A DNA stretch of 64,000 nt from Saccharothrix carnea (lineage in GTDB: Bacteria; Actinomycetota; Actinomycetes; Mycobacteriales; Pseudonocardiaceae): contig NZ_PYAX01000004.1 in the NCBI RefSeq assembly GCF_003014735.1, forward strand, positions 124,001 through 188,000, read 5' to 3'. A model generated the notes under the pieces. That model ran no database searches. It saw only the letters and a program-made list of their open reading frames with translations, and was not told where the DNA came from. Shown here piece by piece: positions 1-25,558 of the stretch. How positions within the stretch are numbered: position 1 is the stretch's first letter; each line of letters opens with the position of its first letter. Both the position numbers and the translations under genes were made by a program.

Positions 1-1718
1 TCGCCGAGGTGCCGGAAGTCGCCGGGCAGGGACGACGGGTCCTCGCGCAGCACGACGCCACCGTCGACCAGGCGCGAGCCGTCGACGTCCTGCGGGCTCA
101 GCAGCCGCCGCAGCCCGTCCAGCAGGCCCTCACGGGTCTCGCACAGGATGACCGCCCGCGCGGCCTGGTGCTCGCGGCCCACCTGCATGGTGAAGCACAC
201 GTCGGCCAGGCGGTGCCCGGGATGGCGGTCGAGGTGCTCCAGCTGCCGCGCCGCCGTCCTGGCCAGCAGTTCCTCGTTGCGCGCCGAGATCGGGTAGACC
301 TGCGGCCGACGCGCCTGGTCCGTCGCCGCGCGGGTGGGCGCTTCCTCCAGCACCACGTGGCAGTTCGTGCCGCTCAGGCTGAAGCTGCTCACGCCCGCGC
401 GGCGCGGGGTGTCGGACTCCTCCCACGCGGTGAGCCGGTCGGCGACGTACACCGGGGCGTTGGGGAGGTCGAGCAGCTGGTTCGGCACGTCGAAGTGGAT
501 CGACGGCGGGATGGTCCGGCGCTCCAGCGACATCAGCGTCTTGATCAGCGACGCCAGACCCGCGGCACCGACCGTGTGGCCGATGTTCGTCTTCACCGAG
601 CCGAGCGCGCAGAACTGCCTGCGGTCGGTGAACTCGGCGAACGCGCTGGTGAGGCCCTTGATCTCGATCGGGTCGCCCAGCGCCGTGCCGGTGCCGTGCG
701 CCTCGATGTAGGACACCGACTCCGGCGCGATACCGGCCCGCTTCCACGCGCTGACCAGGAGGTTCTTCTGCGCCTGCGCGTTGGGGGCGGTGAGGCCGTT
801 GCTGCGGCCGTCGTTGTTGACGGCACTGCCGAGGAGCACGCCGTAGACGTGGTCGCCGTCCGCCAGCGCGCGCGACAGCGGCTTGAGGTAGACCCCGGCC
901 ACGCCCTCGCTCCACACCGTGCCGTCCGCCGCCGCGTCGAACGCCCGCACCCGCTGGTCGGCGGACTCGGTCTCGTTGCCGAGGCTGGACGGCGACAGGA
1001 ACAGGTTGACCGCGGCGACGAACGCGGTGTCGCAGTCACCGTTGCGCAGCGCCTTGATCGCCGCGTCCACCGCGACCAGGGCGGACGAGCAGCCGGTGTC
1101 GATGACGCCGGCCGGTCCGCGGAAGTCGAGCAGGTACGACAGGCGGCTGGCCAGGATGCCCGACCACGACCCGGTGATGGCGGAGAAGTCCAGTTCCGAG
1201 AGGAACGGCAGGTACGACGTGATCAGCCGGTGCGTGTGGTCGTTGCCGACGAAGACGCCGGTGTTGGACCCGTACAGCTCGCTCTTGGCGTACCCGGCGT
1301 CCTCCATCGTCTCGACCAGCACTTCGAGCAGGACGCGGTGGTACGGGTCGAGCTGCGTGGCCACGTGCGGCGGGATGCCGAAGTACTCCGCGTCGAACAG
1401 GTCGACCCGGTCAAGGTAGCCGCCCTTGCGGACGGCGTCCGTGCCGCCTTCGACCCGCCGCAGGTCCTCCAGCCGCTGTGGCGGGAAGTCGCCGATCGAC
1501 TCGCGGCCCTCGACCAGGTTGCGCCAGAACTGCTCCTTGTCCGACGCGCCGGGGAACCGGCAGGCCATGCCGACCACGGCGACGCGGTCGTCGTCCCGGC
1601 CCGCGTCACCGATCGCCCGGATGAACTCCTTGGCCCGGTCGACGTCGAGCGACTCCTGCTTGACCTGCATCAGCAGGTACCGCAGCAGGTCCTTCCTCAG
1701 TTCCGCGTTCGACGTCAT
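1..1718 (-). CDS. AT-less polyketide synthase, KS module (partial at left edge)
   Basis: The start (ATG at 1718) is inside the window; the gene runs off the left edge, leaving about 572 residues. Residues 1-40 form a charged helical docking segment. A ketosynthase follows from about residue 45, with active-site Cys near 210 in DTGCSSAL and then the [12 protein letters not shown] and KTNIGH histidine motifs, so the KS looks active. After the KS comes the usual trans-AT linker region, not an acyltransferase, up to the edge. Its ATG overlaps the upstream PKS stop by 4 bp (ATGA), so it is translationally coupled and is the last visible gene of the operon. The rest of the module and any thioesterase lie outside the window. 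Confidence 0.9.
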
Positions 1719-24703: not shown

Positions 24704-25558
24704 TCAGCGAGCCGAGTACGTGTAGAACCCCTGACCGCTCTTCCGGCCGAGCAGACCGGCGGCGACCATCTTCTTCAGCGTCGGGCAGCAGCGGAACTTG
24801 CTGTCCTGGAACTCTTCGTAGAGCACGTTCAGGGAGTTCACGACGGTGTCGAGGCCGATCAGGTCGGCCGTCTCCAGCGGACCCATCCGGTGCCCGTAGC
24901 CCAGCTTGAAGATCGCGTCGACCTGCTCCGGCTCGGCGACCCCGTCGTGCACCAGGAAGGCGGCCTCGTTCATGAACAGGTGCGACAGGCGGTTCGACAC
25001 GAACCCCGGCATGTCGTTGACCACGATGGACCGCTTGCCGAGCGAGCCGACGAACTCCTCGGCGCGCTTGATCGTGTCGGCGGAGGTGTGGAAGCCGCGC
25101 ACGACCTCCGCGCACTCCAGCAGCGGGACGGGGTTCATGAAGTGGATGCCGACGACGTCCTCCGGGCGTGCCAGGGCGGCGCCGAGCTTGGTGATGGAGA
25201 TGCAGCTGGTGTTCGCGGCGACCTTCACGCCCTCGCCGCAGACGTCGCGCAGGTCGAGGTACAGCCGCTCCTTGGCGGCCAGGTCCTCGACGATGTTCTC
25301 CACGATCCAGTCGGCCTCGGCCAGGTCGCCCAGGTCGGCGCTGAAGCGGATGCGGCCGAGGATTTCGTCGGCTTTCCACGAGCCCGTGGTCGGCGACATC
25401 ATGCGGAACTTCCGGACGAGCTGACGGGCGTCCCGAGGTGCCGCGGCGAGCACCGCGGGATCGTGATCGGACAAAATAACGTCGTAACCGTTGGCCGCGC
25501 AGGTGATGGCCACGTCCTTGCCCATCACACCCGCGCCGATAACTCCTACTGTCGCCAT
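24704..25558 (-). CDS. 3-hydroxyacyl-CoA dehydrogenase family protein (FkbK-like)
   Basis: A protein of 284 residues from the ATG of MATVGVIGAG; a longer reading from GTG 25615 adds 19 residues of no family resemblance and is not used. The Rossmann NAD loop GAGVMG is at residues 7-12, and the catalytic-region motifs HFMNPVP, NDMPGFVSNRL and GYGHRMGPLETADLIG are all present. In the extender pathway it oxidises the glyceryl-ACP hydroxyl. It is the first gene of the leftward operon, with AGGGG ahead of the start and a possible operator at 25604-25621. An ordinary 3-hydroxybutyryl-CoA dehydrogenase is the alternative, but the neighbours argue for FkbK. Confidence 0.9.
   Translation of the reverse strand: MATVGVIGAGVMGKDVAITCAANGYDVILSDHDPAVLAAAPRDARQLVRKFRMMSPTTGSWKADEILGRIRFSADLGDLAEADWIVENIVEDLAAKERLYLDLRDVCGEGVKVAANTSCISITKLGAALARPEDVVGIHFMNPVPLLECAEVVRGFHTSADTIKRAEEFVGSLGKRSIVVNDMPGFVSNRLSHLFMNEAAFLVHDGVAEPEQVDAIFKLGYGHRMGPLETADLIGLDTVVNSLNVLYEEFQDSKFRCCPTLKKMVAAGLLGRKSGQGFYTYSAR

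Follow-up and report, generated by a model that had tools for sequence, protein, structure and literature searches.

Assembly lines of the iturin family combine fatty acyl loading, a beta-aminotransferase (AMT) and a seven-residue peptide; MycA loads through an AMP-ligase-type domain, and its AMT module has no in-line acyltransferase (AT). Hydroxymalonyl-ACP and methoxymalonyl-ACP are associated with a gene set of FkbH, a 3-hydroxyacyl dehydrogenase, an ACP and an acyl-CoA dehydrogenase, joined in the methoxymalonyl pathway by a dedicated O-methyltransferase. According to the passages cited here, the zwittermicin A line uses hydroxymalonyl-ACP through the in-line AT ZmaA-AT (PMC4207774, PMC6164871), and in ATs for ACP-borne extenders hydrophobic residues replace the RXR that precedes the YASH motif (PMC4207774). 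Discrete ATs for ACP-borne units are also known, namely ZmaF and OzmC, the latter being the methoxymalonyl-ACP-specific AT of oxazolomycin assembly (PMC6164871). Protein Q2T5Z2 of Burkholderia thailandensis has the order KS-AT-CP-PLP1-C-A-CP-C, and the same source also lists proteins from Streptomyces that contain a PLP domain of this sort (PMC3870968). New actinomycete trans-AT families have also been reported (PMC11260486).

The locus analysed here lies in a window of 64,000 nucleotides, C4:124001-188000 of the Saccharothrix carnea genome (label G000). It resembles MycA/ItuA and the bacillomycin protein BamA in acyl loading, KS and a MycA-type AMT followed by C-A-PCP, the AMT being 47.1% identical to that of bamA; the ligase-type loading seen in two relatives (G040 and G391) is the MycA loading type. 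Unlike MycA/ItuA, it has an in-line AT in the AMT module, an FkbH cassette, KS-DH-KR modules that lack an AT, a KS-ACP and a KS-AT module, and a C domain at its end; its A domains number only three, and its additional PKS modules also set it apart from the iturin-family layout. The FkbH-type cassette is of the hydroxymalonyl-ACP type, as in the zwittermicin A line, but the in-line AT of the AMT module (AT2) has no close kinship with ZmaA-AT. With its discrete AT, the line parallels the oxazolomycin and kirromycin lines of Streptomyces, which are likewise served by discrete ATs; to our knowledge, neither of those two contains an AMT module. The in-line AMT module order alone is not new, because KS-AT-ACP-AMT-C-A-PCP proteins have been listed from other bacteria, in other domain contexts (PMC3870968). 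The literature searched, with MIBiG and antiSMASH outside the comparison, yielded no product or matching pathway for this line, in agreement with the first-pass annotation, which had recognised no described actinomycete pathway of this order. We consider it probable that the locus encodes a conserved, uncharacterised hybrid cis/trans-AT PKS-NRPS line that operates along the scheme proposed below.

Extent, gene order and conservation of the cluster

The first-pass annotation had described a beta-amination module feeding trans-AT modules in one operon at positions 1..25558. The minus-strand genes at 1-25561 indeed encode an AT-ACP-KS-AT-ACP-AMT-C-A-PCP protein, a discrete AT and AT-less KS-DH-KR-ACP proteins (Pfam, motif positions), and the first of these (PA) contains two Acyl_transf_1, KS, Aminotran_3, Condensation, AMP-binding and three PP-binding domains, in agreement with the order that had been read. 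The observation of a hybrid beta-amination/trans-AT line is thus confirmed, but the interval holds only part of the cluster: extension of the contig to the left, which the annotation had proposed, adds about 17 kb past the window's edge, as far as the end of a type II thioesterase gene at C4:107119. Beyond that edge lie genes for KS-ACP-C-A-PCP-E, C-A-PCP and KS-AT-ACP-C proteins (PD, PE and PF), an ABC transporter (ATPase and permease) and the thioesterase. The outline given earlier was therefore correct but incomplete, having overlooked the FkbH cassette, a Trp residue in the first AT of PA (AT1), and the later part of the line, with its extra KS-ACP, two additional amino acids, epimerase, KS-AT module and terminal C domain. 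The principal features are as follows, with window coordinates unless prefixed C4.

24704..25561, minus strand: 3-hydroxyacyl-CoA dehydrogenase-like, cassette gene 1 (Pfam 3HCDH_N and 3HCDH; 9/9 clusters)
23632..24657, minus strand: FkbH-like, cassette gene 2 (NCBIfam TIGR01686 FkbH, 272.2 bits against a cut-off of 146.65; 9/9 clusters)
23343..23615, minus strand: discrete ACP, cassette gene 3 (PP-binding, E 3.9e-6; 9/9 clusters)
22202..23350, minus strand: acyl-CoA dehydrogenase-like, cassette gene 4 (Pfam N, M and C-terminal domains; 9/9 clusters)
12191..22120, minus strand: PA, AT-ACP-KS-AT-ACP-AMT-C-A-PCP plus a C-terminal domain of ~200 aa (Pfam, motifs)
20906..21856, minus strand: AT1 of PA, probable loading acyltransferase (Trp against Arg in the five PDB ATs shown)
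18029..18961, minus strand: AT2 of PA, in-line acyltransferase of the AMT module (Pfam, PDB matches)
15965..17146, minus strand: AMT of PA, beta-aminotransferase domain (Aminotran_3; MycA AMT best in PDB)
13091..14512, minus strand: A domain of PA, read as glycine-specific (AMP-binding; pocket residues)
12194..12811, minus strand: C-terminal domain of PA, ~200 aa, without Pfam match (Pfam, genome sampling)
10947..12194, minus strand: discrete AT (Pfam; PDB relatives)
6391..10950, minus strand: PB, AT-less KS-DH-KR-ACP (Pfam)
1715..6403, minus strand: PC, AT-less KS-DH-KR-ACP (Pfam)
C4:118966 to about 125718 (window part 1..1718), minus strand: PD, KS-ACP-C-A-PCP-E (Pfam)
C4:115601-118873, minus strand: PE, C-A-PCP (Pfam)
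C4:109683-115598, minus strand: PF, KS-AT-ACP-C (Pfam)
26979..27719, plus strand: HemK/PrmC-like methyltransferase, divergent (Pfam MTS; NCBIfam matches all below cut-offs)

The open frame of PA spans 12191-22198 on the minus strand; its start was judged to be 22120, where relatives begin. The order of transcription is dehydrogenase, FkbH-like, ACP, acyl-CoA dehydrogenase, PA, discrete AT, PB, PC, PD, PE, PF, ABC ATPase, permease and thioesterase. Because these genes share a strand and have overlapping or closely spaced ends, they may fairly be read as one operon.

The 11-gene core from the dehydrogenase to PF is syntenic in all nine complete clusters compared (G000, G022, G040, G069, G187, G390, G391, G392 and G636), with PE matching in pieces in G040 and G391. 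Eight of these clusters, our own included, were obtained from the surroundings of matches; G636, the ninth, belongs to a different family within the order. Their hosts include Crossiella sp. SN42 (G187; Pseudonocardiaceae), Nocardiopsis alba DSM 43377 (G390), Nocardiopsis sp. ATB16-24 (G392) and Spirillospora albida NRRL B-3350 (G391), Nocardiopsis and Spirillospora representing two families of Streptosporangiales; fragments near contig ends were found in Micromonospora rosaria DSM 803 and Streptomyces sp. rh34. The cluster family is common to several distantly related actinomycetes, and it may make an undescribed class of compounds. Outside the core, identity of the ABC genes is as low as 34-41% in G187, G390 and G392; the thioesterase match of G040 (32%) lies on the other strand, and that of G391 precedes the cassette.

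The methyltransferase gene is present in eight of the nine clusters; in the region of G391 that was retrieved, no copy was found. It is divergent and upstream in G000, G022 and G636, follows the thioesterase in G069, G187, G390 and G392, and is fused to the C-terminus of PF in G040. Its candidacy as a methoxymalonyl O-methyltransferase is weakened by its HemK-like family and by this fusion. Further along the window, a plus-strand frame of 845 aa with WD40-type repeats (27744-30281) adjoins the cluster, and a minus-strand frame of 395 aa (32238-33425) carries a C-terminal prokaryotic phospholipase A2 domain. A long minus-strand frame at 53149-56454 has an aromatic amino acid lyase as its C-terminal part; the minus-strand frame adjoining it (56474-59782) is without a Pfam match and is perhaps too long.

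The predicted beta-amination protein PA and the FkbH cassette

AT1 carries Trp at the usual Arg site in all seven clusters that possess it, a replacement that we take to mark loading ATs for monocarboxylic acids. Its motif GHSIG is replaced by SHSIG in G636 and by GFSLG in G187, G390 and G392; neither Arg nor Lys occurs in its triplet, YA[HDQ], its LAAH motif resembles the GAAH of ZmaA-AT, and the solved AVES 1 AT (4rl1) is among its PDB matches. In G040 and G391 (2/9 clusters), PA begins with an AMP-binding domain of the AMP-ligase type in place of AT1; the Pfam match begins at profile position 153 in the stretch scanned, with about 100 more residues open upstream. This replacement supports a probable loading role for the AT1 position. 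As a candidate hydroxymalonyl AT, AT1 was rejected on account of its replacement in two clusters that keep the cassette, and of the Trp for Arg.

The four genes of the FkbH-type extender set stand together and complete at 22202-25561, and the set is retained in G040 and G391, where AT1 has been replaced and the in-line AT of PF (AT3) is dead. The client of the cassette is therefore likely to be AT2 or the discrete AT. AT2 keeps its GQG motif in 9/9 clusters, and its triplet before the HxxH motif is F[TVM]E in all nine and in the Streptomyces sp. rh34 fragment. Among the other ATs of the genome, 14 in number, 12 could be read plainly (L114 was left out, and L125 is readable only with the register shifted by eye); in 10 of these 12, triplet position 1 or 3 is Arg or Lys, whereas in two (L112 and L123) neither position is. 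The triplet of AT2 is therefore uncommon without being unique to it. That AT2 draws its unit from the cassette ACP is a hypothesis, and the link is weak because AT2 is far from ZmaA-AT, the solved hydroxymalonyl-ACP AT (35th of 36 PDB matches, the best being a polyene AT and CurL), the third triplet residue is acidic, and the HxxH motif (HPYH, HPFH, HAFH or HAYH) is nearer the malonyl type. A second FkbH match occurs elsewhere in the genome (C2:69964-70890, L128).

Downstream of AT2, a class III aminotransferase domain resembling glutamate-semialdehyde aminomutase sits between ACP and C, as in MycA-type beta-amination modules. Its best PDB match is mycosubtilin synthase A (6kfm, E 1.5e-129), the next kind, glutamate-semialdehyde aminomutase, following at 7.4e-55, which bears out its first-pass assignment as a MycA-type AMT; the motif YGKLVGGG is kept in all nine clusters. 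The domain is predicted to convert the ACP-bound beta-ketone to a beta-amine. AMT matches at 1e-100 or better were found in 28 of 390 genomes of the bacterial family, our own counted, and are thus not rare there; besides our own, four are 70-92% identical, and the next is 53%. Matches in plasmid records were all below 60% (bamA, 47.1%).

The pocket residues of the PA A domain, read by hand like those of PD and PE, are DILQIGVIW in the window and DIL-Q-[IV]G-V-IW in 9/9 clusters. DILQIGVIW we take to be a glycine code, which agrees with the glycyl unit that had been placed after beta-amination. The C-terminal domain of PA had matches at E 1e-15 in 3/397 sampled genomes of the order and 3/394 of the class, our own counted in each, and is apparently specific to this cluster family. 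One of the class matches, 45% identical, lies in an 1822 aa frame of a fragmented genome (G1019:C427:22190-22807, L136). Profile comparison of this domain as a C/E remnant gave nothing, in an insensitive test that scored only 5-8% for the Pfam-recognised terminal C domain and 100% for KR against KR; its structure model has a mean pLDDT of 55.

The remaining modules and a proposed assembly scheme

PB, PC and PD have no AT match and a discrete AT is encoded beside them, as in trans-AT PKSs; the line is mixed, since PA and PF have in-line ATs. Both parts of the earlier claim for AT-less modules with a discrete AT stood: PB and PC lack an AT match in Pfam, and the PDB relatives of the discrete AT are malonyl-CoA transacylases, including the trans-acting DisD, PksC and PksE. 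The discrete AT keeps GQG and has the triplet [KR]V[VA] in 9/9 clusters. PDB neighbours were compared for three KS domains; at 1e-100, that of PB has a single match (7zma) and that of PC six, of which three are PksL.

In PD, the second Condensation stretch is read as an E domain from its HHLAVDVVSW motif, a rule that we assume to mark epimerization. The PD pocket is DGYF[IVL]G[GA]VF in all nine clusters, and the residue is perhaps aliphatic. The PE pocket is more varied: DAFW[LI]GGTF, read as Val, in G000, G022 and G636; DSFWLGGTF in G069; and DGLTCVGVF in G187, G390 and G392. In G040 and G391, a whole extra A domain with the pocket DFWNIGMVH, read as Thr, lies inside the old PE A domain. The match of G391 to the S. 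carnea PE breaks off at residue 532 and picks up again at 1115, a full AMP-binding domain with its C-terminal domain standing between the two halves; the pattern in G040 is similar.

From the domain content, order, motifs and conservation, we propose the following substrates, product and release step. AT1-ACP would load an acyl starter, which KS-AT2-ACP would extend, with the MycA-type AMT turning the beta-ketone into a beta-amine; if AT2 uses the hydroxymalonyl unit of the cassette (methoxymalonyl if methylated), an alpha-hydroxy-beta-amino acyl unit would result. The C-A-PCP portion of PA would then add glycine, and PB and PC, fed by the discrete AT, would add a diene. PD would add a C2 unit, with its ketone kept, and an amino acid made D by the E domain; PE would add the amino acid read as Val. 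The final C2 unit would come from PF, whose terminal, noncanonical C domain would then release the chain.

Several points of this scheme have competing readings. The cassette might feed the discrete AT or AT3, placing the oxygenated carbon elsewhere and leaving a plain beta-amino acid as the head. The precedents of OzmC and ZmaF (PMC6164871) speak for the discrete AT, and the resemblance of AT2 to a polyene AT and CurL rather than ZmaA would fit either enzyme; the discrete AT, however, has Lys or Arg at its first carrier position in 9/9 clusters and resembles malonyl transacylases, and two clusters retain the cassette despite a dead AT3, so that we rate this reading at somewhat less than an even chance. 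For release, the first-pass annotation had suggested closure of a macrolactam by the beta-amine. Pfam detects no thioesterase domain in the PKS/NRPS proteins of the cluster, and the terminal C domain, in whose DHS[IV]FD motif the second His and the Asp of HHxxxD are conserved across 9/9 clusters, might join the beta-amine to the last carbonyl in a ring of about 21 atoms by domain-order count. Release by water or another amine is equally plausible, and the macrolactam is a realistic outcome that falls a little short of being probable. Finally, the family could be an ordinary one already known through a compound under another name: its core occurs in several genera, of which some producer may have been studied, and most subscription papers and MIBiG lay outside the search. 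The literature searched held no matching pathway, however, and we regard this as unlikely.

Decay of AT3 in PF

Arguments on how AT-less modules evolved from modules with an AT usually rest on deep phylogenies. The decay of an AT within orthologous copies of one module is, in our view, the most interesting aspect of this cluster family. AT3 has the motifs GHSTG and HAYH in seven of the nine clusters. In G040, the catalytic Ser is replaced by Asp (GHDTG), and in Spirillospora albida (G391) by Gly (GHGVG), with about 105 residues missing, including the catalytic His; the frame is uninterrupted in both. The second residue of the GQGxQ motif, the Gln of which serves the AT oxyanion hole, is Leu, Ala or Ser in 9/9 clusters and never Gln. 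In G040 and G391, PF would thus depend on an AT acting in trans, apparently a natural case of cis-to-trans AT conversion among orthologous modules, and with the GQG Gln absent the function of AT3 appears doubtful in the other seven clusters, whose PF is perhaps on its way to trans-AT operation. Because versions of this module exist whose AT is complete in Ser and His, inactivated by a point change or partly deleted, each with a discrete AT encoded alongside, the transition could be studied by enzyme assay.

AT3 might alternatively have been lost in G040 and G391 through decay of the entire pathway, as the loss of the Ser in both and the methyltransferase not found in G391 could suggest. The other core genes of these clusters are open, however, with best aligned stretches 58-76% identical to those of S. 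carnea, and both clusters contain additional KASIII genes as well as a further A domain that is complete, all of which makes general decay a distinctly improbable explanation. Conversion of PF to service in trans is the reading we retain for these two clusters. Taken jointly, the family would display a PF module at successive cis-to-trans stages, a loading swap, an A-domain insertion that changes specificity, and an AMT module acting on hydroxymalonyl-ACP to give an alpha-hydroxy-beta-amino acid; this combined reading is tentative, and we hold it to be more doubtful than not. The natural swaps of loading domain and adenylation specificity are possible engineering templates.

Between AT and ACP, PF has about 430 aa without Pfam match (about residues 900-1345, L011:5683-11598), in all eight clusters aligned. 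This spacer could be a degenerate KR; profile comparison as a KR remnant gave nothing, in a test as insensitive as that used for the C-terminal domain of PA (5-8% for the recognised terminal C domain, KR against KR 100%). A KASIII gene lies between PD and PE in G040 (L053:18159-19286) and in G391 (region L104:1688-4867), accompanied in the latter region by a carboxyltransferase and an ACP gene; perhaps these genes supply the starter.
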